Source of the DNA: Loktanella sp. 3ANDIMAR09
GTDB lineage: Bacteria > Pseudomonadota > Alphaproteobacteria > Rhodobacterales > Rhodobacteraceae
Direction of reading: 5' to 3'
DNA length: 64,000 nt
NCBI RefSeq assembly: GCF_001420005.1
Contig: NZ_LJAK01000004.1
Coordinates: forward strand, 124,001-188,000
Shown in pieces: positions 45,501 through 63,202 of the stretch (position 1 is the stretch's first letter; the number at the start of each line of letters is the position of its first letter). A program made the translations under genes and the position numbers. The notes under the pieces are model-generated. The model was not told the origin of the DNA, did not search any database, and worked only from the letters and a program-made list of their open reading frames with translations.

Positions 45501-46994
45501 TTATCCCTCTTTCATCAGCAGGTCCGCAAAGGCGTCCAGCAGTTTATGTTTCAGTATCTTGCCCGTCGGGGCCGCAGGTAGCGCATCTACCGCAAAAATC
45601 CGTGTTGGCCGCTTATAGCCGCTTAATCGCCCCGCGACAAAGTGCGCGAGGGCCGCCGTATCAAATGTCGCAGGATCGCGACATTGCACAAAGGCGAGGA
45701 TATCCTCGTCCCCCACCGAATTGGCGGCACCGATCACGGCACTCTGGATCACCTCTGCATGGTCGTTCAGGGCTGTTTCCACCTCTGGCGGGTAGACGTT
45801 GAAGCCGCCACGGATGATCAGCTCCTTGGCGCGGCCGACGATATGCAGGTTTCCGGCCGCGTCCAGCTGGCCCAGATCGCCGGTGCGCAGCCAGCCATCC
45901 TGCACCGTTTGCGCGGTCAGATCGGGGGCGCGGTAATAGCCTTTCATCACATGCGGGCCACGGGTCAATACCTCGCCGACCTGCACCCCGGCTGGCGCAT
46001 CTATCCTGACATCAACCCCCGGCAATGGGCGGCCCGCGCTGGTGTCGGGGTCACCGATTGCATTGCGACTGCCGCTGACGCCAGCGGTGCTTTCGGTCAT
46101 GCCGTAGCCATTTTGCAGCGGCAGGCCATAGAACGCCTCCGCCTTGGCCTTCCACGCGGGATCGAGGGGGGCCGCCCCGGACGAGACATAGCGCAACACG
46201 CTGTCCGTCAGCCGGGTCAACCCCCGGTCAGCCGCATATTGCATCAGCAGCGCGTGCATCTGCGGCACGCCCGGAAAAACCGTCACACCGCCGGTCAGGG
46301 CCGCGTGCAGGCGTGCCGGGCTGAACCGCGTTTCCAACTGCAACGCAGCCCCCGACAGCGCGCAGGCGATCAGCACGGACGCCAGACCAAAGACATGGGT
46401 CAGGGGCAGCACGCCGTAGATCCGGTCCTGCGCGGTCATGCTGCGCAACTGCACCGACAGCCCACCGGCAAAGATCAGGTTGGCGTGGGTCAGCATCACC
46501 CCCTTGGGCGCACCCGTCGTGCCTGTTGTGTAGAGGATGACGGCAACATCACCCACCTCAGCCTCGGCGGGGCCTGTATCACGTTGCATCAGGTGCAACG
46601 GGCCAAAACCGATGTCATGCGACACGGCGGATGTTGCGTGGGCCAGCGCCTCGGCGGAACAGCCAGAGGTATAGATCACCACCCGTGGCTGCGCGTGATC
46701 CGTGACACGGGCAATTTCCGGTGCGGTCATGCGCGCATTCACCGGCACCGCGATCGCACCGACCCGGCTGGCGGCAAAGATGAAAACCGCCGTTGCAAGG
46801 CAGTTTTCCGCCACGATCAGCACGCGGTCGCCAGCCATGACGCCCGATTGCGCCAGCAGTGCGCCCGCTGCCGCGATATTGCGATCATATTGCGCGAAAC
46901 TGACGGCACCATCGGGATCGATGATGGCCGTGGCGTCCGGCCATAGCGCCGACTGCCGTGCGATCAGCGCGTCGATGCGGTCTGCGTTTTGCAT
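45501..46994 (-). CDS. pimA: AMP-forming acyl-CoA ligase (pimeloyl-CoA ligase-like)
   Basis: A 497-residue adenylate-forming enzyme: [20 protein letters not shown] near 152 (P-loop), [11 protein letters not shown] near 294, and [20 protein letters not shown] near 370, with the late Lys in [10 protein letters not shown]. It would activate free dicarboxylic or fatty acids with CoA and ATP. The assignment as PimA rests on its place after pimC/pimD-like genes; the substrate is inferred. ATG follows GGGGAGGCGG. Confidence 0.82.
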
Positions 46995-47027: not shown

Positions 47028-48140
47028 TCAGGCCACGGCCAGCGCCACGAACCGTTCGGTATGATAAAGTGTGTCGCCAAAACGGTGATCGACCATGACC
47101 AACCGCCGCGCGAGATGCGCCAGCGCATATTCCTGCGTCATGCCGATGCCGCCGTGCAGCTGGATCGATTCCTCGGCCACCAGACGCGCCGCCTGCCCCA
47201 CCAGCGTCTTGGTCGCCGACACATGGGTATCGCGCACCAGCGCATCGGCATCGACATGCCCGGCCAGGTTGATGACAGCGGACCGGGCCTGTTCGATCTC
47301 GATCAGCATGTCGGCCATGCGGTGTTGCAGCGCCTGAAATTTGCCGATCGGCTGGCCGAATTGCTTGCGCGTTTTCAGGTAGTCAGTGGTTAGCGTGCGG
47401 ATCGCGTCCATCAGGCCGACGGCCTCGGCGCTGATGGCAAGCGTGGCGCGGGCGTGAACCTGTGCCAGCGCCTGATACCCCTCACCCGCTGCGCCAAGCG
47501 GCGTGCCGGGGGTGTTGTCCAGCGTGATTTCCGCCGCATGGCCGCCACCCGTCAACGGATAGCCACGCCGGGTCAATCCGGGCGCATCCGCGTCCACGAT
47601 GAACAGGCTGATCCCCGCCTCATCCGCCACATCCCCGCTGCTGCGCGCGCTGACGATCAGCCTGTCCGCTGCCCCGCCGTTCACGACAACCGCCTTGCGA
47701 CCCGACAGTTTGCCGTCCGTCACGGTGGTGGCAACCCGAGACAGGTCGTAGCGGCTGCCGGGCTCAGAATGAGCCAGCGCCATCTGACGATGGCCTGCGA
47801 TGACCTCCTCCAGTAGTGCCTGTTGATCCGCATCACCCAGCGCCGCGATCAACCCACCGCCCAACAGCCCGGTGTCGATCAGCGGTTCGGTCGCCCCGAC
47901 ACGGCCCAACTCCTCGGCCACCAGCGCAATATCGAAACCCGCCCCGCCAAAACCGCCCTGATCTTCGGTAAACAGCGCGCCGATGACCCCGATCTCGGCC
48001 AGCCCAGCCCAGACAGCATCGGACCAGCCCGTTTCACTGTCTGCGATCTGCGACAGCAAGGCGGGGGTATATTGGTCACGCAGGTAACGGCGCAGGCCGT
48101 CCTGCAACATCTGGCGTTCTTCGGTCAGGTCAAAGTTCAT
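47028..48140 (-). CDS. pimD: Acyl-CoA dehydrogenase, small-subunit type (PimD-like)
   Basis: A 370-residue acyl-CoA dehydrogenase-fold protein (N-domain MNFDLTEERQMLQDGLRRYL, C-domain with TRKQFGQPIGKFQALQHRMAD and QLHGGIGMTQEYALAH). It lacks the usual catalytic Glu near the end and is shorter and more divergent than its neighbour, typical of the second subunit of heteromeric dehydrogenases such as PimCD. It follows the pimC-like gene by 7 bases. Confidence 0.85.
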   Translation of the reverse strand: MNFDLTEERQMLQDGLRRYLRDQYTPALLSQIADSETGWSDAVWAGLAEIGVIGALFTEDQGGFGGAGFDIALVAEELGRVGATEPLIDTGLLGGGLIAALGDADQQALLEEVIAGHRQMALAHSEPGSRYDLSRVATTVTDGKLSGRKAVVVNGGAADRLIVSARSSGDVADEAGISLFIVDADAPGLTRRGYPLTGGGHAAEITLDNTPGTPLGAAGEGYQALAQVHARATLAISAEAVGLMDAIRTLTTDYLKTRKQFGQPIGKFQALQHRMADMLIEIEQARSAVINLAGHVDADALVRDTHVSATKTLVGQAARLVAEESIQLHGGIGMTQEYALAHLARRLVMVDHRFGDTLYHTERFVALAVA

Positions 48141-48147
48141 GGCTGTC

Positions 48148-49338
48148 TCACAATTCCAGAATGGCTTTGGCGATGATCGACCGCTGCACCTCGTTCGAGC
48201 CACCGTAGATCGACAGTTTGCGGTTGTTCAGGTATTGCCGCGTGCGCGCCTGCGCATAGGCGGGACCCACGGGGTCGTTGTCGCCCTCAAGTGCCTCGGA
48301 CACATACGGCATGGCATAGGGACCGACGGCCTGCATGGTCAGCGCGTTGATTTCCTGACGCACCTGCGTGCCCTTGATTTTCAACATCGAGCTTTCGGCA
48401 CCCGGGGCCTGGCCCGCGGCGGCGGCACTGACGACACGCAGATTGGTCGTGGCCATGGCCATCAGGTCGATCTGCACCTGTGCGATGCGCGCGGCAAACA
48501 GCGGGTTCTTGATCAATGGCTGACCGCCCGACTGTTCGGCCCGTGCGATCCGTTTCAGCTGTTCCAGCCCGGCGCTGGCAAATCCGACGCCCGCGATGTT
48601 GGTGCGTTCATGCGTCAGCAGATATTTGGCGTAGGTCCAGCCCTTGTTTTCCTCACCGACCAGATTGGCGGCAGGCACGCGAACGTTGTCGAAAAATACC
48701 TCGTTCACCTCGGCCCCTCCGTCGATCAGCACGATGGGCCGCACCGTGATGCCGGGACTGTTCATGTCGATCAGCAAAAAGGAAATGCCTTCCTGCCGCT
48801 TGCCTTCGGTGCTGGTGCGCACGAGGCAGAAAATCATGTTCGCGTGCTGGCCCAGCGTGGTCCATGTTTTCTGCCCGTTGACGATGTAATCATCGCCGTC
48901 ACGCACAGCAGAGGTCCGCACCGCAGCCAGATCGGACCCGGCCCCCGGTTCGGAATAACCCTGACACCACCAGTCGTCGCCGTTCAGAATACGCGGCAGC
49001 CAATAGGATTTCTGATCCTCGGACCCGAATGCCATCAGAACCGGCCCCAACATCGCAAGCCCGAACGGCACGATGCGCGGCGCGTGCGCCTTGGTCATTT
49101 CATCCTCAAAGATGTGGCGCTGCACCGCGTCCCAGCCCGTGCCGCCGTGTTCAACCGGCCAGTTGCCCGCCAGCCAGCCCCGCGCGTTCAGAATCGCGTG
49201 CCATTCCTCGTGATCGGCCTTGGTCAAGGACTGGCCATTGCGGACCTTGTCCGACAGGCGGCTCGGCAGATGCTCGGCCAGAAAATCGCGGACCTCGGTC
49301 CGGAATGCCGTCTGGGCGTCGGTGTAGTGCAGATCCAT
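48148..49338 (-). CDS. pimC: Acyl-CoA dehydrogenase, large-subunit type (PimC-like)
   Basis: A 396-residue acyl-CoA dehydrogenase: WCQGYSEPGAGSDLAAVRT near 125 binds FAD, VNGQKTWTTLGQHANMIF near 154. Near the C-terminus the motif reads SIYGGSNEVQRSIIAKAIL, where single-type enzymes have YEG with the catalytic Glu, so Gly replaces that residue. The arrangement with the next gene matches pimeloyl-CoA dehydrogenase PimC/PimD. ATG follows GAGGGGGACC. Confidence 0.87.
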   Translation of the reverse strand: MDLHYTDAQTAFRTEVRDFLAEHLPSRLSDKVRNGQSLTKADHEEWHAILNARGWLAGNWPVEHGGTGWDAVQRHIFEDEMTKAHAPRIVPFGLAMLGPVLMAFGSEDQKSYWLPRILNGDDWWCQGYSEPGAGSDLAAVRTSAVRDGDDYIVNGQKTWTTLGQHANMIFCLVRTSTEGKRQEGISFLLIDMNSPGITVRPIVLIDGGAEVNEVFFDNVRVPAANLVGEENKGWTYAKYLLTHERTNIAGVGFASAGLEQLKRIARAEQSGGQPLIKNPLFAARIAQVQIDLMAMATTNLRVVSAAAAGQAPGAESSMLKIKGTQVRQEINALTMQAVGPYAMPYVSEALEGDNDPVGPAYAQARTRQYLNNRKLSIYGGSNEVQRSIIAKAILEL

Positions 49339-49349
49339 GACGGTCCCCC

Positions 49350-50525
49350 TCAGTAGATTTCAAACAGGCCAGCGGCCCCTTGGCCACCGCCGATGCACAT
49401 GGTGACAACGCCCAGTTTCGCACCCCGGCGGCGGCCCTCGATCAGCAGGTGCCCGGTCATGCGCGCGCCTGTCATGCCGAACGGATGACCCAGCGCGATG
49501 GACCCACCGTTCACGTTCAAACGGTCGTTGTCGATGCCCAGCACATCGCGGCAATAGATCAGCTGACTGGCAAAGGCCTCGTTCAGCTCCCACAGATCAA
49601 TGTCGGCAACGGTCAGGCCCGCGCGTTCCAGCAGGCGCGGCACGGCGTAGATCGGCCCGATGCCCATCTCGTCGGGTTCGCAGCCCGCCACGGCAAAACC
49701 GCGAAACGCACCCAGCGGCGCAAGCCCCGCACGGCTGGCCGCATCTGCATCCATCATCACCAGCGCCGCCGCCCCGTCAGACAGCTGCGAGGCGTTTCCG
49801 GCCGTGATGAACTGATCGTCACCCCGCACGGGCGACAGGCCTTGCAGCGCCTCCAGCGTCGTGGTCGGGCGGTTGCATTCGTCCTTGGCGATCGTCACCT
49901 CACGCACGGAGGTCTGCTTGGTCGCCTTGTCCGTCACCTGCATCGTCACGGTGATCGGCACGATTTCATCGTCGAACAGCCCCGCATCCTGCGCGGCCGC
50001 CGTGCGCTGCTGGCTTTGCAATCCCAGCGCATCCTGATCGGCGCGGCTGATGCCATAGCGGGACGCCACGATATCGGCGGTTTCGACCATCGGCATGTAG
50101 AGGTCGGGTTTGTTGTCCAAAATCCAGGCGTCGCGCGAATGGCGCGCGGGCGGCTGCACCATCGAAATGCTCTCGACCCCGCCGACCAGCACGGCCTGCG
50201 CACCTTCCTGGGCGATCATGTGACCGCCCATCGCGATGGCCTGCAAGCCGCTGGCACAGAACCGATTGACCGTGGTGCCTGCGATGCTGACGGGCAGTCC
50301 CGCGCGGATCACGGCCTGACGCGCGATGTTACCGCCCGTGACATATTCCGGATAGCCGGTCCCCCAGATGCTGTCCTCGATCAGGGCAGGATCGATCCCC
50401 GCCCTGTCGACGGCATGGCGCGCGACATGACCGGTCAGGGTCGCCCCGTGGGTCATGTTGAACGCACCGCGCCCGGCCTTGCCGATTGCGGTGCGGGCGA
50501 CGGAAACGATGACGGGCAATGACAT
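49350..50525 (-). CDS. pimB: Acetyl-CoA C-acyltransferase (thiolase, PimB-like)
   Basis: A 391-residue thiolase. Cys90 in [14 protein letters not shown] is the nucleophile; NEAFASQ near 334, [16 protein letters not shown] near 364-379 and [14 protein letters not shown] carry the His and second Cys. It cleaves 3-oxoacyl-CoA to acetyl-CoA and a shortened acyl-CoA. The start is ATG at 50525 after GAGG; an in-frame TTG two codons earlier is less likely. It lies 9 bases after the pimF-like gene. Confidence 0.88.
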
Positions 50526-50534
50526 AGGCAATCC

Positions 50535-52622
50535 TCAGGTATTCAGGCTGGCAAAGGTCCGGCGGTCCCGCACGAGACGTTCCAGCAGCGGGGCGGGTTT
50601 CCAGAAATGATCGTCCAGAACCGCAAAATCGCGGATATCCGACAAGATGACGTCCAGCCCCACGGTGTCGGCATGGTGCATGGGCCCACCCCGGAAACGG
50701 GGGAAACCGTAACCGGACAGGAACACCACATCCACGTCAGAGGGGCGTTGGGCGATGCCTTCGTCCACCACGCGGGCGGCCTCGTTCACCATGGCCGCCA
50801 TGGTGCGGCGCACGATCTGTTCTGCGCTGAATTCGCGTGGTTTCAGGCGCAGGCTGTCACGCACATCGCGGATGATCGGTGGCACATCATCATTGGGCCG
50901 GCCCTTGGGCGTCGCATCGTCGTAAATGTAATAGCCACGTCCGGTTTTCTGCCCCAGCCAGCCTGCGTGATACAGCGCATCCGCAAACAGGGGCGCGCGG
51001 TCACGCGGGTGGGCCTGCGCTGCCTTGCGCTGGCGGGTCATGTAGCCAATGTCGAGGCCCGCCAGATCACCGACCTGATAGGGCCCCATCGCAAAGCCGA
51101 ATTCCACCAGCGCGCGGTCGATCGCATAGGGGCTGGCCCCGTCAAGGACCATGTGATCCACCGCCGTGCGATAATGCGACAAGATCCGGTTGCCGATGAA
51201 CCCGTCGCAAACACCTGCGCGCACGCCGACCTTACCCAGCGTTTTTGCCAGCTGAAACGCCGTTGCCGTCACATCGACAGCCGTTTCATTTGTCACGACG
51301 ATTTCCAGCAGCTTCATCACATGCGCAGGCGAAAAGAAATGCAGCCCGATCACATCCTCCGGGCGATGTGTGGCCCCTGCGATCAGGTTCACGTCCAGAT
51401 AGGACGTGTTGGTGGCAAGGACCGCGCCCGGTTTGCAGACACGGTCAAGTTGGCGGAAAACCTCGGCCTTGACGGCCATGTCCTCGAACACGGCCTCGAC
51501 CACCAGATCAGCCTGTGACAACGCGGCGTAATCTGTCGCTGTGGCCAGCGCGTCCGACAGGATCGCATCGCGACCAGCTTCGGTCAGCTTGCCACGTTTC
51601 ACGGCGCTGGACAGGTTGCGGGTGATGGTGTCGCGGGCCCGTGCAGCACTGGCCGCGTCACGTTCCACCAAGGTGACGTGCAGCCCTGACAACACCATCG
51701 CCGTGGCGATCCCTGCCCCCATCGTGCCGCCGCCGACAACACCGGCACGGGTCACGGGACGTGGGGCGATACCCTTGATCTGCGGGACCTTTGCCACTGC
51801 ACGTTCCGCGAAAAATGCGTGCATCAGACCCGCGCGCTGCGGTGTTTTCAGCAATGACAGGAAGGCCTTGCGTTCTGCCGCCAAGGCCTGCGCAAATGGC
51901 ATCCTTGCGCCTGCCACGACGGCATCCAGCACCGCCAGAGGTGCCACCTGACCGCGCGCCGACTGGGTCAGACGCTTGCGCCAGCCATCCACCAGATCGG
52001 CGTCGAGCTGCGGAAACGGCATGTCACTGACTCGGCGCGGACCGGTCCCGCCCTGCACAAGCTTTGCCGCATAAGCCATTGCATCTGCGCGTAAATTGTC
52101 ACCCGCCAAAACATCCACAAACCCCATGTCCAGCGCCTGCGCGCCCGTCACCGGCCGGCCGGCTGTCATCAGGGTCAGCGCATTTTCTGCGCCCACCAGC
52201 CGCGGCATGCGCTGCGTGCCACCGGCACCGGGCATGACCCCCAGCGTGACCTCTGGCAGGCCCAGTTTCGCGGTCGGCGTGGCAATCCGGTAGTGCGCGC
52301 CCAGCGCGACCTCTAGCCCGCCGCCCAGGGCGGTGCCGTGGATCGCAGCCACCACGGGCTTGGGACTGTCCGCGATCCGGTTGATGACATCAGGCAGATA
52401 GGGTTCCACAGGCGGTTTGCCGAATTCGGTGATATCCGCGCCACCGATGAACAAACGGCCTGCGCCGATGATGACGGCGGCATCCGCGCCGTCATCGGCG
52501 TCAAATCGCGTGATGGCATCCCATAGACCCTGGCGCACCGCCTGCCCCAGCGCATTCACTGGTGGATTGTCGACGGTGAGAACCGCCACGCGGTCCTGCA
52601 AATCATAACTGACGTGGGTCAC
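50535..52622 (-). CDS. pimF: Bifunctional enoyl-CoA hydratase/3-hydroxyacyl-CoA dehydrogenase (PimF/FadJ-like)
   Basis: A 695-residue fusion. Residues 1-180 form the crotonase domain, with the oxyanion loops IIGAGRLFIGGADITEFG and ALGGGLEVALGAHYRIA. From about 295 comes the dehydrogenase: AGVVGGGTMGAGIATAMVLSG binds NAD, and GLHFFSPAHVMKLLEIV near 438 holds the catalytic His. The GTG at 52622 follows GGGAGGAGG and matches the family start. It leads the operon, downstream of a double IclR-type operator. Confidence 0.92.
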   Translation of the reverse strand: MTHVSYDLQDRVAVLTVDNPPVNALGQAVRQGLWDAITRFDADDGADAAVIIGAGRLFIGGADITEFGKPPVEPYLPDVINRIADSPKPVVAAIHGTALGGGLEVALGAHYRIATPTAKLGLPEVTLGVMPGAGGTQRMPRLVGAENALTLMTAGRPVTGAQALDMGFVDVLAGDNLRADAMAYAAKLVQGGTGPRRVSDMPFPQLDADLVDGWRKRLTQSARGQVAPLAVLDAVVAGARMPFAQALAAERKAFLSLLKTPQRAGLMHAFFAERAVAKVPQIKGIAPRPVTRAGVVGGGTMGAGIATAMVLSGLHVTLVERDAASAARARDTITRNLSSAVKRGKLTEAGRDAILSDALATATDYAALSQADLVVEAVFEDMAVKAEVFRQLDRVCKPGAVLATNTSYLDVNLIAGATHRPEDVIGLHFFSPAHVMKLLEIVVTNETAVDVTATAFQLAKTLGKVGVRAGVCDGFIGNRILSHYRTAVDHMVLDGASPYAIDRALVEFGFAMGPYQVGDLAGLDIGYMTRQRKAAQAHPRDRAPLFADALYHAGWLGQKTGRGYYIYDDATPKGRPNDDVPPIIRDVRDSLRLKPREFSAEQIVRRTMAAMVNEAARVVDEGIAQRPSDVDVVFLSGYGFPRFRGGPMHHADTVGLDVILSDIRDFAVLDDHFWKPAPLLERLVRDRRTFASLNT

Positions 52623-52680
52623 GCGTGCCTCCTCCCGGTCCTCGTACCCGGCATACCGCACTGGTCAAATATTTCAATAT

Positions 52681-52719
52681 GCAAAATGATATTCCGCTAT
52701 GCGGAATATATTACAGATC
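52681..52719. promoter_or_regulatory. Double IclR-type operator at the pim-like promoter
   Basis: The strong site is ATTCCGCTATGCGGAAT at 52701-52717, part of a 21-bp perfect palindrome at 52699-52719. A weaker copy, ATTTCAATATGCAAAAT at 52681-52697 (12 of 17 identical), begins exactly 20 bases closer to the gene. The strong site overlaps the stop codon of the iclR gene. The same pair occurs before the TRAP operon at 56554-56590. Confidence 0.75.
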
Positions 52720-53520
52720 TCTTGATCCGGTCGCCCCACCCTGCCCCATCATGCGTTCCAGATCGCGCACGGTGCCCGCCAGCTTGGGCCCCACTTCTTC
52801 GCGCATCCGTGCCACGCTCAGCGCGGCGGGCATGGCACCACAGGTGAAAACAACCGGTTCACCCAGTTCACGCGCATGAAACGGCACGGCCACGGCGTGA
52901 ATGTTGGCCGCGAAATAGCTGTCGGGATCGGTGATCACATAGCCTTGGGTCATCAACTGGTTCTGGGCATCGGCCCGGTCGGTCTGCGCCTGCTGGACCG
53001 TCAGCCCCTTGTCGCCAACGGCCTCTTGCAATGTCGCGGCAAAGGCATCGTCGCCAAGCGCGCCGAACATCGCATGCCCCGACGACGATCCGTGGAACGG
53101 CAGACGGTGCCCCACCTCAAGCCAGAGTGAAGCGACATTGCGCGGACGCCATGTCTTGACGATCAGCATGCGCCCCGCATCCCGCACCAGCAGCAGCGAC
53201 AAGGTGCCGGTGTCATCGGCCAGCCGCTGCATCAGCGGCCCCGACAGATCCACAAAGGACAGCGACGCGCTGGCCATGTTGCCCAGCGCCAGCAAGGCGG
53301 GTCCGGGACGGTAACGGTCGTGGCGCCGGGCATGCGTCAGATATCCCAGCGACTGCAACGTGAATGTCAGCCGCGAAACCGTCGATTTCGGCAGCCCGGT
53401 CCGGTCTGCGATTTCAGCGTTGCCCAACCCGTCGTCCGATGGCCGGAAGGCCCGTAAAACACTCAGCCCCCGTGCGAGGGTCGTGGCAAAGCGCCGGTCC
53501 TTTTCCAGATCACCGTCCAT
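52711..53520 (-). CDS. IclR-family transcriptional regulator
   Basis: A 269-residue regulator. The winged helix includes GLGNAEIADRTGLPKSTVSR near 33-52 and TLQSLGYL; the effector domain includes FHGSSSGHAMFGAL near 145. IclR proteins respond to small organic acids. It sits between the pim-like operon and the TRAP operon on the same strand, and both have matching double palindromes. ATG at 53520 follows AGGAG with 8-base spacing; a GTG three codons earlier overlaps that site. Confidence 0.9.
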   Translation of the reverse strand: MDGDLEKDRRFATTLARGLSVLRAFRPSDDGLGNAEIADRTGLPKSTVSRLTFTLQSLGYLTHARRHDRYRPGPALLALGNMASASLSFVDLSGPLMQRLADDTGTLSLLLVRDAGRMLIVKTWRPRNVASLWLEVGHRLPFHGSSSGHAMFGALGDDAFAATLQEAVGDKGLTVQQAQTDRADAQNQLMTQGYVITDPDSYFAANIHAVAVPFHARELGEPVVFTCGAMPAALSVARMREEVGPKLAGTVRDLERMMGQGGATGSRDL

Positions 53521-53553
53521 CCGGGTCACTCCTGTTCGTTATGTCCCGACCAG

Positions 53554-54894
53554 CTATAGCGAATTCGGAATCAAAAGCGAAATGATCGGAAAGGACATGA
53601 TGAGGATCAGCACCAGCACATCAATCGCCAGAAACCGCGTGATCCCAGAAAAGATGCGGTCGATTGGCACGGCCTTGCCGACCACGTTGCTGATGACGAA
53701 CACGTTCAGGCCCACAGGCGGTGTGATCAGGCCGATTTCCAGCAGCTTGATCACGACGACGCCGAACCAGATCAGGTTGAAACCATAGCTTTCGACCAGC
53801 GGCACCATCAGGGGCAGCGTCAGCACCATGATCCCGATGGGATCAAGGAACATCCCCAGCACCAGGTAGATCAGCGCGATTGCGGCCAGCAGCACGACGG
53901 GCGACAGCTGTGCATCGCTGACACCATTGACGATCACCGGGGCCACGCCGGTCAGCGCGATGAAGGCCACGAAAATCTTGGCCGCAGCGGCGATCAGGAA
54001 AATGGCAGAGGTCTGGATGCAGGTTTCCCGCAGGCTTTCCCACAGGTCGGTCAGCGTCAGCTTGCGCTGCGCGAAACCGATCAGGATGGCGGCCGCCACG
54101 CAGATCGCCGCAGCCTCGGTCGCAGTGAAAAATCCACCATAGATCCCACCGACGATCAGACCGAACAGCGCCAATGCCGGCCATGCGCCGACGGCCGCTA
54201 GCCACTTGTCACGCCCGGTGATCACGCCTGTGAACGCCGGTGCCGCACTCGGCTTGCGTTTCACCCAGATAAAGATCGTCAGCAAAAAGCCCAGCAAAGA
54301 CAGAATGCCCGGCAGGATACCGGCCAGAAACAGCGACGAGATCGAGGTCTCGGTGAAAATCCCGTAGATGATGAACAACACCGACGGCGGGATCAGCGAT
54401 CCCAGCGTGCCGCCAGCGGCCACCGATGCGGTGGCAAGGCTCTTGTCATAGCCCATGCGCAGCATTTCGGGCGAACAGATGCGGCCCATCGTGGATGCAC
54501 AGGCGATGGATGACCCCGTGATCGCGGAAAATCCGCCGCAGCCCACGACCGACGCCATTGCAACGCCGCCCGGCACGCGAGCCAGCCAGACCCGCGCTGC
54601 GTCGTAGATTCGCGTCGTGATATCGGCCCGATAGGCAATATGGCCCAACGCGATGAACAGCGGGATCATCGAAAGATCATAAGAGTGGATGAGGTCGAAC
54701 GAATTGGAAAACACCAGTGATGTCGTCGGCCTGACCGCACGATCCGGCGTGAACGCCCCCGTCCGCGTGGCAAAGATGACGAATGTGCCGATCGTTCCGA
54801 TGGCCGCCAGTGCGAATGCAATCGGCACCCGGATGGCCAGCAGGCCGATCACGGCGGCAAAGGCACAAAGGCCGATGATGGATCCGTCGATCAT
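53554..54894 (-). CDS. TRAP transporter large permease (DctM)
   Basis: A 446-residue membrane protein with about 12 helices. GCGGFSAITGSSIACASTMG near 126, ATASVAAGGTLGSLIPPSVL near 160 and a late GLITPPVGLNVFV are DctM landmarks. ATG at 54894 overlaps the dctQ stop (ATGA). With the DctQ and DctP proteins it probably imports a dicarboxylate or similar acid feeding the neighbouring beta-oxidation operon. An open frame extends further upstream but overlaps dctQ. Confidence 0.92.
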   Translation of the reverse strand: MIDGSIIGLCAFAAVIGLLAIRVPIAFALAAIGTIGTFVIFATRTGAFTPDRAVRPTTSLVFSNSFDLIHSYDLSMIPLFIALGHIAYRADITTRIYDAARVWLARVPGGVAMASVVGCGGFSAITGSSIACASTMGRICSPEMLRMGYDKSLATASVAAGGTLGSLIPPSVLFIIYGIFTETSISSLFLAGILPGILSLLGFLLTIFIWVKRKPSAAPAFTGVITGRDKWLAAVGAWPALALFGLIVGGIYGGFFTATEAAAICVAAAILIGFAQRKLTLTDLWESLRETCIQTSAIFLIAAAAKIFVAFIALTGVAPVIVNGVSDAQLSPVVLLAAIALIYLVLGMFLDPIGIMVLTLPLMVPLVESYGFNLIWFGVVVIKLLEIGLITPPVGLNVFVISNVVGKAVPIDRIFSGITRFLAIDVLVLILIMSFPIISLLIPNSL

Positions 54895-55424
54895 GACTTG
54901 TCCCCGTCTTCGGTAAAGCTGGCGGTGGTGGTTTGCGACATCTGCGGAACACCGCCGCGGCGCAGGGTGCGGACATCCCCGATCACCAGCAACAGCAGGC
55001 GCAGCCAGCAAAACGACATGCCGATCAGGAACAGCACGCGGCCGGGCCATTTCGGCAGGTTCAGCTGTCCGAAATAATACGAACCACCCGTGATCGCATG
55101 CGCGGCCTCGTTCCAGCCCGCATAGAGCAGCGGCGACAGGGCCAGCAGGCCCATCACGCCACCGACCACAACCAGCCAGCCCTGGGTGCGCAGTGGCATC
55201 CGGTTTGACAGAAATTCCACGACGATATGCGCCCGGGCCGTCGTGGCAGCGGCCAGCGGCAGCACGATGGCCATGACCATCAATTCGCGCACCATGACGA
55301 TGGTGTCGGGAATACCCCCATTGACCGTCACGCGCAGCGCCACGCTGATCGTGATCAGCGCACCCAGTGCCACCACGGCGCAACACGCCAGGTCAAGCAG
55401 CAGCCGTTCGATGCGATACAGCAT
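54891..55424 (-). CDS. TRAP transporter small permease (DctQ)
   Basis: A 177-residue protein with four predicted helices (about 12-30, 48-65, 83-103, 130-150) and the DctQ-type sequence LPLAAATTARAHIVVEFLSN in the second. It joins DctM in the TRAP membrane complex. It is separated from the binding-protein gene by a hairpin and overlaps dctM by 4 bases. Confidence 0.88.
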   Translation of the reverse strand: MLYRIERLLLDLACCAVVALGALITISVALRVTVNGGIPDTIVMVRELMVMAIVLPLAAATTARAHIVVEFLSNRMPLRTQGWLVVVGGVMGLLALSPLLYAGWNEAAHAITGGSYYFGQLNLPKWPGRVLFLIGMSFCWLRLLLLVIGDVRTLRRGGVPQMSQTTTASFTEDGDKS

Positions 55425-55446
55425 CTGTTGTCCTCAAACTGTCAGA

Positions 55447-55484
55447 AAAGAAAAGGCCCGCGATGCAAATAAGCACCGCGGGCC
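55447..55484 (-). terminator. Attenuator-like terminator after the TRAP dctP gene
   Basis: An 8-bp stem (GGCCCGCG / CGCGGGCC at 55455-55462 and 55477-55484) with a 14-base loop, followed on the minus strand by TTTTCTTTTC. It stands between dctP and dctQ, so read-through would give less permease than binding protein. Confidence 0.75.
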
Positions 55485-55492
55485 CGCCGGTT

Positions 55493-56536
55493 TCAGCGAT
55501 CCCAGGGATAGCCCTGGGCGTCGCGCTCTGCCGTGAATTCGGCCAGCAGCGTGCGATAGCGATCCAGCATGCCCGCGCCGTCCAGACCTGCGGCGTTGGC
55601 CTGTTCGATCCAGGTGTCGATATAGGGCGCACCGCGCGCCACCAGCTTGTCGCGTTCCGCCGCGTCCAGCGTGATCACCTCGACACCGGCGTCTTGCATG
55701 GTCTGCACTGCGGCGTCGTTGTCGGCATTGATCAGCCGGCCCAGCGTATCGGCCATGCCGACACCGGCGTCATTCAGCGCCTGCTGGTGTTCCGGGCTGA
55801 GCGCGTCGTAGGCGAACTTGTTCATGAAGATGCCCAGCGCACCGACCTGACCCCAATCCATCAGCGTGTAGCTGGTCATGACCTCTTGCTGTTTCAGCGC
55901 GGCCACGGCGTAGGAATACCCCTGAGAGCAATCCAGCAACCCGGTGTCCAGGCCCTGATATGCGTCATAGATCGACATGGCGACCATGTTGGCCCCCAGA
56001 TCATTGAACACCTTGCCATAGGCACCGACGCCACGCACCTTCAGACCGTCGATGTCTTCAGCCGTGCGGATCGCCGTATCCTTGCAGCCGATATTGACGG
56101 CGGATGTGGTGAATGTGCCCAGATAAACCAGACCCTGATCGGCCAGATTGGCGGCGATTGACGGATCGGTGCGCATCAGCGCATCCGTCGCACGCATCCC
56201 GACCCAGGCGTCGGCGTTTTGCAAGGGCAGATCTGCGATGCCGTAAGCCACCATTTCCTGCGGAAAATACACGCCAATGATCGTGCCGAGGTCTGCCACA
56301 CCATCGCTGACCCCCTGCAATGCCGCATCGGCCTTGAACAGGGCACCGCCCCATTGGATGTCAATTTGCAGATCGCCATTCGTGCGGGCCGTCACATCAT
56401 CCGCGAACGCCTGCGTGGCGACAGCGCGCGCGCCCCGGTTCGGCCCCGCCTCACCCAAGATCAGCGTGGTCTGCGCGGCTACCGATGTTGCCATCAAACC
56501 CAGCGATACCGCCGCCGCTGCCAAAGTCCTCGTCAT
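55493..56536 (-). CDS. TRAP transporter substrate-binding protein (DctP)
   Basis: A 347-residue periplasmic protein with signal peptide MTRTLAAAAVSLGLMATSVAAQ. The DctP body has DLQIDIQWGGALFKADAALQ near 55, IDGLKVRGVGAYGKVFNDLG near 160 and a QGLDTGLLDC segment near 190. ATG at 56536 follows GGGAGGAGCG. It is the first gene of the TRAP operon downstream of the double IclR-type operator; a dicarboxylate ligand is inferred from regulation and context only. Confidence 0.9.
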   Translation of the reverse strand: MTRTLAAAAVSLGLMATSVAAQTTLILGEAGPNRGARAVATQAFADDVTARTNGDLQIDIQWGGALFKADAALQGVSDGVADLGTIIGVYFPQEMVAYGIADLPLQNADAWVGMRATDALMRTDPSIAANLADQGLVYLGTFTTSAVNIGCKDTAIRTAEDIDGLKVRGVGAYGKVFNDLGANMVAMSIYDAYQGLDTGLLDCSQGYSYAVAALKQQEVMTSYTLMDWGQVGALGIFMNKFAYDALSPEHQQALNDAGVGMADTLGRLINADNDAAVQTMQDAGVEVITLDAAERDKLVARGAPYIDTWIEQANAAGLDGAGMLDRYRTLLAEFTAERDAQGYPWDR

Positions 56537-56553
56537 CGTCGCTCCTCCCAGAA

Positions 56554-56590
56554 CTTCCAATAAGTAGAATACCATTCCACTATACGGAAT
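56554..56590. promoter_or_regulatory. Double IclR-type operator at the TRAP promoter
   Basis: The strong site ATTCCACTATACGGAAT at 56574-56590 differs from the pim-promoter site at two symmetric positions. A weaker copy, CTTCCAATAAGTAGAAT at 56554-56570, lies 20 bases nearer the gene, the same spacing and order as at 52681-52717. Confidence 0.75.
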
Positions 56591-56692: not shown

Positions 56693-57481
56693 TCAGACCG
56701 ACGTGGTGTCCGAAATGTCTGACCGACAGACCTGCACCTGCGTGTCCCAGCCCGCGCACCGCTCGGCCAGATCGGGCGAAACAGGTGCATCGGTTACAAA
56801 GATATCGATCCCCGACAAGGACCCGATCTGTGCGGGGGCCTTGCGTTTGAACTTGGTATGGTCGGCGAGCAGGATCTTGCGGCGGGACTGCCCCAGGATC
56901 GTCTGGCTGACGCCGACCTCGCGCAGGTCGAAATCCAGAATATCGCCGTCATGATCGACCGCCGAACACCCGATGACGCCAAAGTCGAACTTGAATTTCC
57001 GGATTGCGGCCGTGGTAATGTCACCGGTCAGACCGCCATCCGACTGGCGCAACGCGCCGCCGGTCACGACGACCTCGCAGTCGGGGTTGCGCGCGAGGAT
57101 GTTGGCCACGTTCATGTTGTTGGTGACGACCAGCAGGTTGCGATGATGCAGCAGCTCGTTTGCGACAGCTTCGGTGCTGGTCCCGATATTGAGAAAGATC
57201 GCGCAATCCTCGGGGATCATGGCCGCACAGGCACGCGCCATCGCGGTCTTGCCTTCGGCATTCAGGCGGCGGCGTTCCTCGTAGGCGATGTTGATCGTGC
57301 CCGACGGCAGCACGGCACCGCCGTGGACCCGTTCCAGCTTACCCGCGTCGGCCAGATCGCTGAGGTCGCGCCGGATCGTCTGCAAGGTCACACCCAGATG
57401 CTCGGCCAGATGTTCCACCGTCACCTTGCCGTCGCGTCGCGCAATTTCGAGGATTTCAGGGTGTCTGATGCTTTGCGACAT
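56693..57481 (-). CDS. glpR: DeoR-family repressor GlpR
   Basis: A 262-residue DeoR-type regulator. The helix-turn-helix VTVEHLAEHLGVTLQTIRRD lies near 20-39, followed by LERVHGGAV; the sugar-phosphate domain includes EGKTAMARACAAMIPEDC near 76 and NIGTSTEAVANEL. Divergence from glpD identifies it as the glycerol-3-phosphate repressor. ATG at 57481 is set by the family N-terminus. The frame is open upstream, but that part is the shared promoter. Confidence 0.9.
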   Translation of the reverse strand: MSQSIRHPEILEIARRDGKVTVEHLAEHLGVTLQTIRRDLSDLADAGKLERVHGGAVLPSGTINIAYEERRRLNAEGKTAMARACAAMIPEDCAIFLNIGTSTEAVANELLHHRNLLVVTNNMNVANILARNPDCEVVVTGGALRQSDGGLTGDITTAAIRKFKFDFGVIGCSAVDHDGDILDFDLREVGVSQTILGQSRRKILLADHTKFKRKAPAQIGSLSGIDIFVTDAPVSPDLAERCAGWDTQVQVCRSDISDTTSV

Positions 57482-57705
57482 GAACGTGATCCAATGGCTT
57501 TTCTTGCAATATGACAGGAAAACCGAACATCGCCCATCCCATACCGCACCTGTGATTGTCGAAAACACGACGAAACGCGCGAAATTCGTCCCGAAACCGG
57601 CTTCTAACATGCGCATTTCCGCAAAAACGAAAATAACCGAAAAAATATCTTTTCTTTTCTGCACGCCCTTGCAATGCTGAACGCAGGAATTTGGGGGGAT
57701 TCACT
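57482..57705. promoter_or_regulatory. glpR/glpD divergent promoter with phased CGAAA repeats
   Basis: CGAAA occurs on the plus strand at 57560, 57571, 57580, 57592, 57628 and 57638, with spacings of 11, 9, 12, 36 and 10 bases, close to multiples of one helix turn. Direct repeats on one helix face are typical of DeoR-family operators. The last ~70 bases before glpD are A/T-rich and probably include its promoter. Confidence 0.6.
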
Positions 57706-59289
57706 TTGGCGAACGATCGCGAGATCCGCGACCTGCTGGTCATCGGCGGTGGCATCAATGGCTGTGGGATTGCGCGTGATGCGGCGGGGCGCGGCCTGAC
57801 CGTCACCCTGGCCGAGATGTCGGACCTTGCCTCTGCGACCTCCTCTGCGTCGACCAAACTGTTTCACGGCGGATTGCGCTATCTGGAATTCTTTGAATTC
57901 CGGCTGGTCCGCGAGGCGTTGTTGGAACGTGAAACACTGCTGCGGGCGATGCCGCACATCAGCTGGCCGATGCGGTTTGTGCTGCCCTACCACGCCGACA
58001 TGCGGTTCGACAGCGACACACCGACGTCGAAAATCCTGTCGCGTGTCATGCCATGGATGCGCGGACGCCGCCCCGCCTGGCTGATCCGACTGGGTCTGTT
58101 CCTCTATGACAACCTGGGCGGACGCCAGATCCTGCCGGGGACGAAAACGCTGGACCTGACCCGCGGACCAGAGGGCGCGCCGCTGAACCCGCGTTTCGCC
58201 AAGGCCTATGAATACAGCGATTGCTGGGTCGAGGATTCGCGACTGGTGGTGCTGAACGCGCGCGACGCGGAACTGCGCGGCGCGCAGGTGCTGACCCGGA
58301 CCAAGGTGATGTCGGCCAAGGTGCAGGACGGACTGTGGTCGGTGACGATGCAGGACACCGAAACAGGCCACCAGCGCGTGATCCGTGCACGGATGGTCGT
58401 CAATGCAGGCGGTCCCTGGGTGGGTCAGATCCTGCGACAGCAGATCGGGTCCAACAGCCAGGACGACGTGCGGCTGGTGCGGGGCAGCCATATCGTGACC
58501 AAACGCCTCTTTGACCACGACAAATGCTATTTCTTTCAGGGGACCGACGGGCGCATCATGTTCGCCATCCCCTACGAGACGGATTTCACCCTGATCGGCA
58601 CAACCGACCAGGAACACGATGACCTGTCTGCACGTCCCGTCTGCACGCCTGCTGAAAAACAATACATGATCGATTTCGTGAACGCCTATCTGCGTGACCC
58701 GATTTCCACCAAGGACATCGTCTGGTCCTATTCCGGTGTACGCCCGCTGTTCGACGAAGGGGCCAGTTCCGCCACGGCAGCGACCCGCGACTATACGCTG
58801 AAACTGGACGACAGCGCAGGTGCGCCCGCGCTGAACATCTTTGGCGGCAAGATCACGACCTACCGCCGCCTGGCCGAAAGCGCGCTGGAAAAGATCGGCC
58901 AGCGGCTGGACGTGGCACAGGGTCCTTGGACCGCAGGCGTACCGCTGCCCGGTGGCGATTTTCCGGTCGGTGACGTGGATCGCCAGATCGCGACCCTGCG
59001 CAATGCCTACCCGTTTCTGGACGATCGCTGGGCCACCCGCCTGATCCGCGCCTATGGCACCGATGCACAGCTGATCCTGGGCGATGCCGCCAGCGCAGCA
59101 GACCTTGGGCCTGCGTTCGGTGCCACGCTGACAGCCGCAGAGGTCGATTGGCTGATGACCCGCGAATACGCCCGCACCGCCGAGGACATCCTGTTTCGCC
59201 GCAGCAAACTGGGTCTGCGCGACACCGATACAGCCGCACTTGACGCCTATATGACCGACCGCCGCCAGCAATTGAAGGACATCGCATGA
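57706..59289 (+). CDS. glpD: Glycerol-3-phosphate dehydrogenase (FAD)
   Basis: A 527-residue flavoenzyme. DLLVIGGGINGCGIARDAAG near residue 8 binds FAD, STKLFHGGLRYLEFFEF near 52 is the GlpD signature, and FGGKITTYRRLAE near 383 the second. It oxidises glycerol-3-phosphate to DHAP at the membrane and passes electrons to quinone. TTG at 57706 is preferred because the G-rich ribosome-binding site lies 6 bases before it; a TTG at 57691 would contain that site. It overlaps glpS by four bases. Confidence 0.93.
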   Translation: MANDREIRDLLVIGGGINGCGIARDAAGRGLTVTLAEMSDLASATSSASTKLFHGGLRYLEFFEFRLVREALLERETLLRAMPHISWPMRFVLPYHADMRFDSDTPTSKILSRVMPWMRGRRPAWLIRLGLFLYDNLGGRQILPGTKTLDLTRGPEGAPLNPRFAKAYEYSDCWVEDSRLVVLNARDAELRGAQVLTRTKVMSAKVQDGLWSVTMQDTETGHQRVIRARMVVNAGGPWVGQILRQQIGSNSQDDVRLVRGSHIVTKRLFDHDKCYFFQGTDGRIMFAIPYETDFTLIGTTDQEHDDLSARPVCTPAEKQYMIDFVNAYLRDPISTKDIVWSYSGVRPLFDEGASSATAATRDYTLKLDDSAGAPALNIFGGKITTYRRLAESALEKIGQRLDVAQGPWTAGVPLPGGDFPVGDVDRQIATLRNAYPFLDDRWATRLIRAYGTDAQLILGDAASAADLGPAFGATLTAAEVDWLMTREYARTAEDILFRRSKLGLRDTDTAALDAYMTDRRQQLKDIA

Positions 59290-60365
59290 CACTGGAACTT
59301 GACAGCGTCAGCCATGTGGTCGGCGCTCAGACCTATATCCATCCGACTGACCTGACCTTGGAAAAGGGCACGATGAACGTGCTGCTGGGGCCGACCTCGG
59401 CGGGCAAGACCACGTTGATGCGCCTGATGGCCGGGCTGGACGTGCCGACCCAAGGCCGGATCCGCTGGAACGGGACCGATGTCACCGGCGTGCGCGTGCA
59501 GGACCGTCAGATCGCGATGGTTTACCAGCAGTTCATCAACTATCCCGCGATGAGCGTTTACGACAACATCGCCTCGCCCATGAAACTGATGGGGCTGGCG
59601 AAATCCGAAATCGACCGCCGCGTGCGCGACACGGCAGAGCTGATGCAGCTGACGCCCATGCTGGACCGCAAGCCGCTGGAACTGTCGGGCGGCCAGCAGC
59701 AACGCTGCGCGCTGGCGCGGGCCTTGGTGAAAAACGCAGGTCTGGTCCTGCTGGACGAACCGCTGGCCAACCTCGACTACAAACTGCGCGAGGAATTGCG
59801 CGCGGAAATCCCGCGCATCTTTGCGGAATCCGGGTCGATCTTTGTCTATGCAACGACCGAACCCGAAGAAGCGCTGCTGTTGGGTGGCAACTGCGCCACC
59901 CTGTGGGAAGGCCGCGTGACGCAATTCGGCCCGACCGCGCAGGTGTACCGCAACCCGCAAGATGCGACGACGGCGCGGGTGTTTTCCGACCCACCGATGA
60001 ATTTCCTGACGGTCGAAAAACGCGGCGACACGCTGCATTTCGGTCAGAACGAAACCATGCCCGCAGGCCGCATCACAGCCGCCGACGGCACCTATCAGCT
60101 GGGGTTCCGCCCCAATCACCTGACACTGGAGGCCGGACCGGACAGCATCCGTTTCGACACCAGGCTGTCGGTCATGGAAATCACCGGGTCCGAAACCTTT
60201 GTGCATCTGTCCCATCATGGTGCTGCCTGGGTCGGACTGATCCACGGCATCCGCGACCTGACACCGGGGCAGGCCCTGCCCGTCTACCTTGATCCATCCC
60301 GCGTCTATCTGTTCGCGCAGGATGGTGCACTGGTCGCCACGGCCCCCTATGCGGAGGCCGCGTAG
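59286..60365 (+). CDS. glpS: Glycerol ABC transporter ATP-binding protein GlpS
   Basis: A 359-residue ATPase: Walker A GPTSAGKTT near 35, signature LSGGQQQRCALARA near 134, Walker B LVLLDEPLANLDY near 154, and a C-terminal regulatory OB domain (about 240-355). The H-loop position reads YATTEPEEA, with Thr instead of the usual His. Coupled to glpD by ATGA, as in the rhizobial glpDSTPQUV operon for glycerol uptake. Confidence 0.9.
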   Translation: MTLELDSVSHVVGAQTYIHPTDLTLEKGTMNVLLGPTSAGKTTLMRLMAGLDVPTQGRIRWNGTDVTGVRVQDRQIAMVYQQFINYPAMSVYDNIASPMKLMGLAKSEIDRRVRDTAELMQLTPMLDRKPLELSGGQQQRCALARALVKNAGLVLLDEPLANLDYKLREELRAEIPRIFAESGSIFVYATTEPEEALLLGGNCATLWEGRVTQFGPTAQVYRNPQDATTARVFSDPPMNFLTVEKRGDTLHFGQNETMPAGRITAADGTYQLGFRPNHLTLEAGPDSIRFDTRLSVMEITGSETFVHLSHHGAAWVGLIHGIRDLTPGQALPVYLDPSRVYLFAQDGALVATAPYAEAA

Positions 60366-60366
60366 C

Positions 60367-61445
<1,079 letters not shown>

Positions 61446-61449
<4 letters not shown>

Positions 61450-62318
61450 ACAAGACCGTCAATCAAAAGGCGTGGTTCCTGATCCTGCCCGTGCTGATCC
61501 TTGTCGCGTTTTCCGCCGTGATCCCGCTGATGACAGTGGTGAACTATTCGGTGCAGGACACATTCGGGAACAACCAGTTTTTCTGGGCGGGCCTCGATTG
61601 GTTCGATGATATGCTGCATTCGGACCGGATGTGGGACGCATTGGGCCGTCAGTTGTTGTTCTCTGGCATCATTCTGGCGATCGAGGTGCCGCTGGGCATC
61701 CTTGTCGCGCTCAACATGCCGAAAAAGGGGTTTTGGGCCTCATTCTGTCTGGTCGTGATGTCACTGCCGCTGCTGATCCCGTGGAACGTCGTCGGCACGA
61801 TCTGGCAGATCTTTGGCCGGGTCGATATCGGGCTGCTGGGCTACACGCTGGATGCGCTGGGGATCGACTACAACTATACCCAAGACACGCTGGACGCCTG
61901 GATCACGGTGATCGTCATGGACGTCTGGCACTGGACGTCGCTGGTGGCGCTTCTGGCCTATGCGGGCCTGCGGTCCATCCCTGACGCCTATTATCAGGCC
62001 GCCAAGATCGATCAGGCCAGCCGCTGGGCCGTGTTCCGCTATATCGAACTGCCCAAGATGGCGGGCGTGCTGATGATCGCGATCCTGTTGCGGTTCATGG
62101 ACAGCTTCATGATCTACACCGAACCATTCGTCGTCACCGGTGGCGGTCCGGGCAATGCCACGACCTTCTTGTCGATCGACCTGGTGAAAATGGCGCTGGG
62201 TCAATTCGACCTGGGCCCGGCGGCGGCGTTCAGCCTGATGTATTTCCTCGTGATCCTCGCGATTTCATGGGTGTTCTACACCGTCATGACGACCTTAGAT
62301 AACCGGGATGGCAAATGA
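61446..62318 (+). CDS. glpP: Glycerol ABC transporter permease GlpP
   Basis: A 290-residue permease with six helices, beginning AWFLILPVLILVAFSAVIPL. The EAA loop is DAYYQAAKIDQASRWAVFRY near 180-199, typical of the MalF-type (CUT1) sugar permeases. ATG overlaps the glpT stop, and its stop overlaps the glpQ start. Confidence 0.9.
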
Positions 62319-63202
62319 TGACCGACACAACCATGCCAAGCGTCGCCCAGACCGATGACGCGATGACCATCGAAAAACCCCGCACCGCGCAGCGCCGGTT
62401 CCGCCCGTCGGGCAGTGCGGTGGTGATGGGTCTGTATCTGCTGTTCCTGATGCTGCCGATCTATTGGCTGCTGAACATGAGCCTCAAGACGAACTCTGAA
62501 ATCCTCGGCTCGTTCAGCCTGTGGCCGCGTGACCTGACATTCGCCAATTATGCGCTGATCCTGACGGATTCCAGCTGGTACATGGGCTACGTCAATTCGC
62601 TGATCTACGTTGTGTTGAATACGGCGATCAGCCTCGCCGTCGCCCTGCCCGCGGCCTATGCCTTCAGCCGCTACAGCTTCATGGGGGACAAGCACCTGTT
62701 CTTTTGGTTGCTGACGAACCGCATGGCCCCGCCTGCCGTTTTCGCGCTGCCGTTCTTTCAGCTCTATTCGTCCATCGGACTGTTCGACACACATATCGCC
62801 GTGGCGCTGGCGCATTGCCTGTTCAACGTGCCGCTGGCTGTTTGGATCCTTGAGGGATTCATGCGCGGCGTGCCCAAGGAAATCGACGAGACCGCCTATA
62901 TCGACGGCTATTCGTTCCCGGCGTTTTTCATCAAGATTTTCACCCCGCTGATCGCCAGCGGCATCGGGGTGGCTGCGTTTTTCTGTTTCATGTTCTCTTG
63001 GGTGGAACTGCTGCTGAGCCGGACACTGACATCCGTGGATGCAAAACCGATCGCCGCCACCATGACCCGCACCGTGGGCGCCGCCGGGGTCGACTGGGGC
63101 GTGCTGGCCGCCGCCGGTGTCCTGACCATCGTGCCCGGTGCCTTGGTCATCTATTTCGTACGCAACTACATCGCCAAGGGCTTTGCCCTGGGGCGGGTGT
63201 GA
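62315..63202 (+). CDS. glpQ: Glycerol ABC transporter permease GlpQ
   Basis: A 295-residue MalG-type permease with six helices after a cytosolic N-terminus of about 35 residues. The EAA loop GVPKEIDETAYIDGYSFPAF near 188-207 contacts the ATPases. The start overlaps glpP by ATGA. It is not the glycerophosphodiester phosphodiesterase also named GlpQ. Confidence 0.9.
   Translation: MMTDTTMPSVAQTDDAMTIEKPRTAQRRFRPSGSAVVMGLYLLFLMLPIYWLLNMSLKTNSEILGSFSLWPRDLTFANYALILTDSSWYMGYVNSLIYVVLNTAISLAVALPAAYAFSRYSFMGDKHLFFWLLTNRMAPPAVFALPFFQLYSSIGLFDTHIAVALAHCLFNVPLAVWILEGFMRGVPKEIDETAYIDGYSFPAFFIKIFTPLIASGIGVAAFFCFMFSWVELLLSRTLTSVDAKPIAATMTRTVGAAGVDWGVLAAAGVLTIVPGALVIYFVRNYIAKGFALGRV

Follow-up and report, generated by a model that had tools for sequence, protein, structure and literature searches.

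Putative tandem operators of a local IclR-family regulator upstream of TRAP transporter and beta-oxidation genes in Loktanella sp. 3ANDIMAR09

In the accessible text of a comparative study of IclR-family operators (Suvorova and Gelfand 2021, PMC8222616), the WTT-11-AAW subgroup of group 1 is assigned the consensus WTTYCRYW3RYGRAAW, tandem sites 18–22 nt apart are given for 94 orthologous groups and interpreted as tetramer binding, and three-box sites are given for 32 orthologous groups. Here we describe two 37-base elements of the tandem kind in a 64,000-nucleotide stretch of Loktanella sp. 3ANDIMAR09 (RefSeq assembly GCF_001420005.1, contig NZ_LJAK01000004.1, positions 124,001 to 188,000; hereafter the window). 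They stand before the genes of a tripartite ATP-independent periplasmic (TRAP) transporter and before a beta-oxidation operon, in a minus-strand cluster with the order dctP, dctQ, dctM, iclR, FadJ-like gene, thiolase, two acyl-CoA dehydrogenases and acyl-CoA ligase.

The pimFABCDE genes of Rhodopseudomonas palustris form a dicarboxylate operon, in which FadJ-like, thiolase, paired PimC/PimD dehydrogenase and ligase genes make up one unit. Ralstonia requires a dehydrogenase pair resembling PimCD for C8–C12 dicarboxylates, according to the accessible part of PMC12543098. In Phycobacter azelaicus, expression of azeTSL rises strongly in response to azelaic acid (Shibl et al. 2024, PMC10945470); as far as the accessible text of that paper extends, the transport role of azeTSLR is put forward as putative, knock-out attempts failed, AzeR is described from co-expression as activating uptake and degradation, and no operator is given for azeTSLR.

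A preliminary description of the window had proposed a local IclR regulon joining uptake to beta-oxidation, a proposal that is borne out by the motif itself, its fixed 20-base spacing, its conservation, its locality and its retention after rearrangement, all computed directly, and by its fit to the published consensus; no contradicting evidence emerged. Co-regulation of both operons by the local IclR appears well supported by these comparisons of sequence, and we consider it very probable that the elements are tandem operators through which this regulator, likely a repressor released by a dicarboxylate, jointly controls the TRAP/iclR and beta-oxidation genes. Local IclR regulons with tandem operators are a known class, of which the system in the window is a new case of ordinary type.

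Operator copies in the window and the genome

The operator copies are as follows.

52691–52707, minus strand: strong copy, distal, at the fadJ-like promoter; ATTCCGCTATGCGGAAT, coding strand ATTCCGCATAGCGGAAT
52671–52687, minus strand: weak copy, gene-proximal, at the fadJ-like promoter; ATTTCAATATGCAAAAT, also given as ATTTTGCATATTGAAAT
56574–56590, minus strand: strong copy, distal, upstream of dctP; ATTCCACTATACGGAAT, also given as ATTCCGTATAGTGGAAT
56554–56570, minus strand: weak copy, gene-proximal, before dctP; CTTCCAATAAGTAGAAT

Computed positions and mismatches agree with the earlier account that a strong and a weak copy precede both operons, the weak one exactly 20 bases nearer the gene at each; the fadJ-side strong copy had been placed at 52701, 10 bases from its true position. 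Both strong copies fit WTTYCRYW3RYGRAAW with 0 mismatches, and the centre spacing, 20 nt in the window with a sharp peak at 20 in relatives, lies within the 18–22 nt of tandem group 1 sites. The strong copies do differ at two positions, 6 and 11, but these are not symmetric as had been thought (6 pairs with 12, and 7 with 11); as a result, the TRAP-upstream copy is less perfectly palindromic, with five of seven arm pairs against all seven on the fadJ side. The weak copies have four (52671–52687) and five (56554–56570) mismatches to ATTCCRCTATRCGGAAT. The right half of the former holds a −35-like TTGAAA at 52672–52677; the latter is separated from the start codon of dctP by 17 bases and adjoins the ribosome-binding site, as it also does in a near-identical locus (L070).

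At up to three mismatches the window holds four matches (one place on both strands), where shuffles gave a mean of 0.37 and 0/100 reached four. Only the two window places match without mismatch in the 3.67-Mb genome, which has 23 distinct places at up to three mismatches. The preliminary description had called for a genome scan with the 37-base double motif; among the 19 of 23 places examined, a 20-base partner with fewer than eight mismatches is present at the two window sites alone, and on this ground a wider regulon in the Loktanella genome was ruled against.

The 37-base element was also searched in 394 genomes of the family at up to three mismatches, a threshold that overlooks weaker pairs such as that of the Loktanella genome G006, and was found at 19 places in 16 genomes, compared with two genomes for the reversed control. 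Seven of the 19 places lie at this cluster, four more loci have another iclR relative by tblastn (17 of 19 examined), and locus L152 has an IclR-like open reading frame judged by eye alone. As such pairs stand beside other iclR relatives, the double architecture is common to other IclR systems. At L155:571–3037 (G297) a 37-base pair lies between a different IclR relative (34%) and an adjoining FadJ-like gene (45%), which may together form a related regulon.

Conservation, promoter anatomy and rearranged loci

Relatives were gathered with a profile of nine IclR orthologues, giving 80 named loci (the best 80 of 129), from which we took TRAP upstream regions (73 loci) and iclR–fadJ gaps (69 loci). 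A pair was accepted with at most six mismatches in total and at most two in one copy. The exact nine-gene order (TRAP P-Q-M, iclR, fadJ, thiolase, two dehydrogenases, ligase) is kept in 62 of the 80 loci. Of the 73 TRAP upstream regions, which precede the binding-protein gene, 63 contain a pair, and 71 contain a single copy with two mismatches or fewer. Pairs also occupy 27 of the 37 iclR–fadJ gaps of at least 84 bases and none of the 32 shorter gaps, where transcription from the TRAP promoter probably continues into the fadJ genes. No pair arose in 20 rounds of first-order resampling of the regions. When five mismatches were applied, a spacing of 20 was found in 58/73 TRAP regions and 23/37 gaps, with every other spacing from 17 to 31 found at most three and two times, respectively. 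Three loci titled Nocardioides, Methylophaga and Mesoflavibacter (L076, L083, L128) carry roseobacter-like clusters, perhaps through contamination or mislabelling.

The two promoters differ in anatomy. The fadJ promoter has its stronger copy in the distal place in 27/27 (mean mismatches per 7-base box 0.26, 0.30, 2.00, 1.96). In the TRAP regions, by contrast, the gene-proximal copy is stronger in 55/63, equal in three and weaker in five (the three Loktanella loci L070, L072 and L073, with L118 and L148), the box means being 2.05, 0.97, 0.24 and 0.57 and the outermost box weak. The agreement in motif and spacing noted earlier thus stands, but the strong-then-weak order is true of few TRAP loci. 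With starts extrapolated from tblastn, the TRAP gene-proximal copy ends 6–49 bases before the start codon; a −10-like hexamer that starts 4 bases ahead of the first copy, present in 11/63 regions, was set aside as too infrequent to build on. In the fadJ logo (24 sequences) the second copy ends in TTGAAA, so its letters may be kept as much for a promoter as for an operator; a weak −10-like TTA follows about 17 bases on, with a −10-like hexamer at that place in 7/27 relatives and one base earlier in three.

Locality was assessed by searching the 17-base motif, at up to one mismatch, in 40 whole genomes holding the cluster or part of it. The motif was found at 33 places in 29 genomes, against one for the reversed control; 30 of the 33 places are at TRAP/iclR/fadJ-type genes, 28 of them at the cluster (of 30 loci examined). 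One place (G439:C51:63617) stands before a fadJ operon, another (G437:C3:13965) has the same letters as the TRAP site of L134, itself in G437, and a third (G437:C105) has no cluster gene nearby.

The pair also follows genes that have moved, which is the strongest evidence for the proposed co-regulation. In two azeTSLR-like genomes the fadJ–thiolase–dehydrogenase operon has left the TRAP–iclR genes, to about 85 kb away (G439) or to another contig (G441), with its pair retained. The pair sits in the iclR–dehydrogenase gap in all five Pseudovibrio loci where iclR is followed by dehydrogenases, and directly upstream of iclR in a Lentibacter locus (L074) with no TRAP genes before iclR. A further pair, ending in TTGAAAT, was seen between iclR and a ligase gene in Pseudophaeobacter (L142:10813–10849).

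Several points weigh against joint control by the local IclR acting as a repressor. The pair is missing at our threshold from 10/37 long iclR–fadJ gaps and 10/73 TRAP regions, and 11/40 genomes lack the motif within one mismatch. Related loci are not independent: when they were grouped by hand from their titles, the pair was present in 25/26 TRAP groups and 10/23 gap groups. The search pattern itself was built from the window and the first relatives. The second fadJ copy is a poor operator match (mean 2.0 mismatches in each 7-base box), the geometry of that promoter would also suit an activator, and a promoter scanner detected nothing resembling a sigma-70 site at the two window operators. Lastly, the genome encodes a second likely IclR with a similar upstream motif, and cross-binding is possible.

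Mechanism and rival explanations

The genes of the cluster and their assignments are listed below.

52711–53529, minus strand: IclR-family regulator, the predicted binder (Pfam HTH_IclR 65.8 bits, IclR_C 35.2 bits)
55493–56536, minus strand: TRAP solute-binding protein, DctP family (domain searches, fold comparison)
54891–55424, minus strand: TRAP small permease DctQ (domain search)
53554–54894, minus strand: TRAP large permease DctM (domain search from 54897; ATG at 54894 read from the sequence)
50535–52622, minus strand: FadJ-like enoyl-CoA hydratase/3-hydroxyacyl-CoA dehydrogenase, first gene of the beta-oxidation operon (domain searches)
49350–50531, minus strand: thiolase (domain searches)
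48148–49338, minus strand: acyl-CoA dehydrogenase, PimC-like (TIGR03204 475.2 bits, cut-off 623.85)
47028–48140, minus strand: acyl-CoA dehydrogenase, PimD-like (TIGR03203 300.9 bits, cut-off 652.7)
45501–46994, minus strand: acyl-CoA ligase (domain searches)

The FadJ-like gene has a GTG start at 52622, preceded by GGGAGGAGG. The equivalog models TIGR03204 and TIGR03203 are the best matches of the two dehydrogenases, with scores under the curated cut-offs. Both IclR domains of the regulator score above the gathering threshold, and the protein is 99% identical to an IclR of Loktanella sp. DSM 29012; its nearest NCBIfam model is PcaR/PcaU/PobR (TIGR02431), at 108 bits below the cut-off of 284.75 for that subfamily. 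Twelve places in the genome pass the HTH_IclR model; good scores are limited to the window iclR (68 bits) and a gene on contig 9 (50 bits), and the remaining matches (21.7–28.3 bits) are probably other winged-helix proteins. The contig 9 gene, the second likely IclR (L196:5878–6764, G000), has a similar upstream site, GTTTCAAATAATGGAAC, and adjoins a sugar-type transport locus (by eye from the open reading frames); double sites also occur beside similar-looking loci in G013 and G240. Beyond the cluster, window positions 56693–63202 hold a DeoR-type regulator divergent from an apparent glycerol-3-phosphate dehydrogenase gene and an ABC transporter, again judged by eye.

From these patterns we infer IclR binding, tetramer formation, repression, a ligand and a substrate, as follows. 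The two 37-base elements would be tandem operators for the IclR encoded at 52711–53529. On each of them two IclR dimers would bind, separated by two helical turns, and form a tetramer along a single face of the DNA. One element would govern the TRAP genes and, as iclR starts 24 bases after dctM and is therefore probably transcribed with them, the regulator would also control itself. The other would govern the beta-oxidation operon (fadJ-like gene, thiolase, PimC/PimD-like dehydrogenases and ligase). Repression is the most likely mode of action, with a medium-chain dicarboxylate, or the CoA ester of one, as the ligand that releases IclR. Before the TRAP genes, where the pair lies near the ribosome-binding site, occlusion is the simplest reading, and at the fadJ promoter the second copy would cover the −35-like TTGAAA. 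Importer and degradation enzymes would then be made only when the dicarboxylate is present, our best guess being azelaic acid or a neighbouring chain length.

Repression competes with a possibility that we hold less likely yet still credible, namely activation by IclR, at the fadJ promoter alone or at both promoters, with the pair, upstream of and over the −35, recruiting RNA polymerase when dicarboxylate is bound. Some PcaU/PobR-type regulators act as activators. The PcaR/PcaU/PobR model is the one closest to the window regulator, albeit below cut-off, and the fadJ pair, ending in TTGAAA with its weak −10 beyond, has a layout that would serve activation, the role for which AzeR is described from co-expression in the accessible text of PMC10945470. 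Set against this is the TRAP gene-proximal copy, whose short distance from the start codon suits repression.

It is unlikely, but worth considering, that the operators are real while the TRAP substrate is an aromatic or other carboxylic acid degraded via CoA esters. The modelled binding protein (mean pLDDT 74.0) has among its fold neighbours the marine aromatic-acid binders 5izz, 5iga and 5i5p and the cinnamate/coumarate binder TarP, to which its identity is just 20–24%; it matches many TRAP binding proteins about equally, so the fold does not tell the substrate. The requirement for a PimCD-similar pair in Ralstonia (PMC12543098) and the azelaic-acid response of azeTSL (PMC10945470), both as given in the accessible parts of these sources, speak for dicarboxylates instead. 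Import of a dicarboxylate by the TRAP system is plausible by likeness to azeTSLR and from the PimC/PimD-like dehydrogenases.

We regard as quite improbable a reading of the 52691 palindrome as the intrinsic terminator of iclR, its likeness to the TRAP-upstream site being secondary. A scanner did flag 52689–52709 as terminator-like on the coding strand (nine pairs, 3-base loop, T-rich tail), with the stem beginning one base past the iclR stop codon, and 8/27 relatives have at least five T in the next eight bases. The stem, though, has only four G-C pairs, and all seven arm pairs are Watson–Crick in only 2/27 relatives while the mean motif mismatch is 0.56 of 14 scored positions, so it is the letters and not the pairing that are conserved; moreover, the same motif upstream of dctP was not flagged, and a terminator leaves the second copy at 20 bases unexplained. 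The palindrome may have a double role as operator and terminator. That the pairs serve another regulator, such as the contig 9 IclR with its similar site or the neighbouring DeoR-type protein, is very improbable, as the contig 9 site ends in GTT/AAC and the window sites in ATT/AAT, the motif stays with iclR, TRAP and fadJ genes in the 29/40 genomes that have it, and it stands directly upstream of iclR where TRAP genes are missing (L074).

An unlinked third target would widen the regulon of the local IclR. A single site with one mismatch, ATTCCGCATAGTGGATT, lies at G000:C9:103621–103637 (L003:1501–1517), upstream of an alpha/beta hydrolase gene whose product is probably secreted and has PETase-like, esterase and cutinase matches in Pfam and the PDB (Pfam PETase-like, 44 bits). 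A site of this type also precedes the 96% identical gene of G396 and was not found at the esterase gene in four more distant congeners (G394, G399, G400, G006), so it is only a lead; the gene is missing from three of nine genus genomes, and a divergent gene could be the target instead. Control by the same IclR of a polyester- or cutin-type esterase in this Loktanella lineage is accordingly a doubtful prospect; if true, dicarboxylate release from esters, import and beta-oxidation would form one regulon.

Comparison with described systems

A literature search covering material outside the supplementary tables of PMC8222616 found no report recognisable as describing this operator. The main text of that study names no Loktanella, Jannaschia, Roseobacter, acyl-CoA, fatty acid or azelaic acid, and its supplementary tables may list the regulon. 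The value of the present case lies in the breadth of conservation, the test on unlinked genes and a connection with azelaic-acid uptake by roseobacters. It supplies a concrete conserved operator and a putative regulon for a group of regulators that includes azeTSLR-like roseobacter loci, for which control was inferred from co-expression (accessible text of PMC10945470). Whether dicarboxylate sensing is linked to TRAP import and beta-oxidation can now be tested directly, and the operator might serve as a sensor element for dicarboxylates derived from algae or plastics.

Two loci, L141 and L142, which we identify as azeTSLR-like by gene order and kinship, also bear the double operator before the TRAP gene; their transporter proteins P, Q and M and their IclR match those of the window at 57–77%. 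A 4HBT-family thioesterase gene follows iclR in L141 and a ligase gene in L142. In a regulator tree of 79 of the 80 loci, with a long-branch warning elsewhere in the tree, both group with L134, which has a full window-type cluster (support 100/98); the 80-row family around them also contains the window.

The operators of the window resemble the group 1 tandem sites in the accessible text of PMC8222616 in consensus fit, in a spacing of about two helical turns and in belonging, as most such sites do, to a small regulon. Like azeTSLR of Phycobacter azelaicus, as given in the accessible text of PMC10945470, the cluster has TRAP P-Q-M followed by iclR in the same direction, with uptake feeding beta-oxidation; there, however, a transcript separate from that of the permeases and azeR is predicted for the binding-protein gene. 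The beta-oxidation operon of the window lies directly behind iclR, whereas in azeTSLR-like genomes it is found elsewhere. With its FadJ-like, thiolase, paired PimC/PimD-like dehydrogenase and ligase genes in one unit, that operon is like the pim operon of Rhodopseudomonas palustris, from which it differs in having a TRAP system and an IclR regulator attached and dehydrogenases that score below the PimC/PimD cut-offs.

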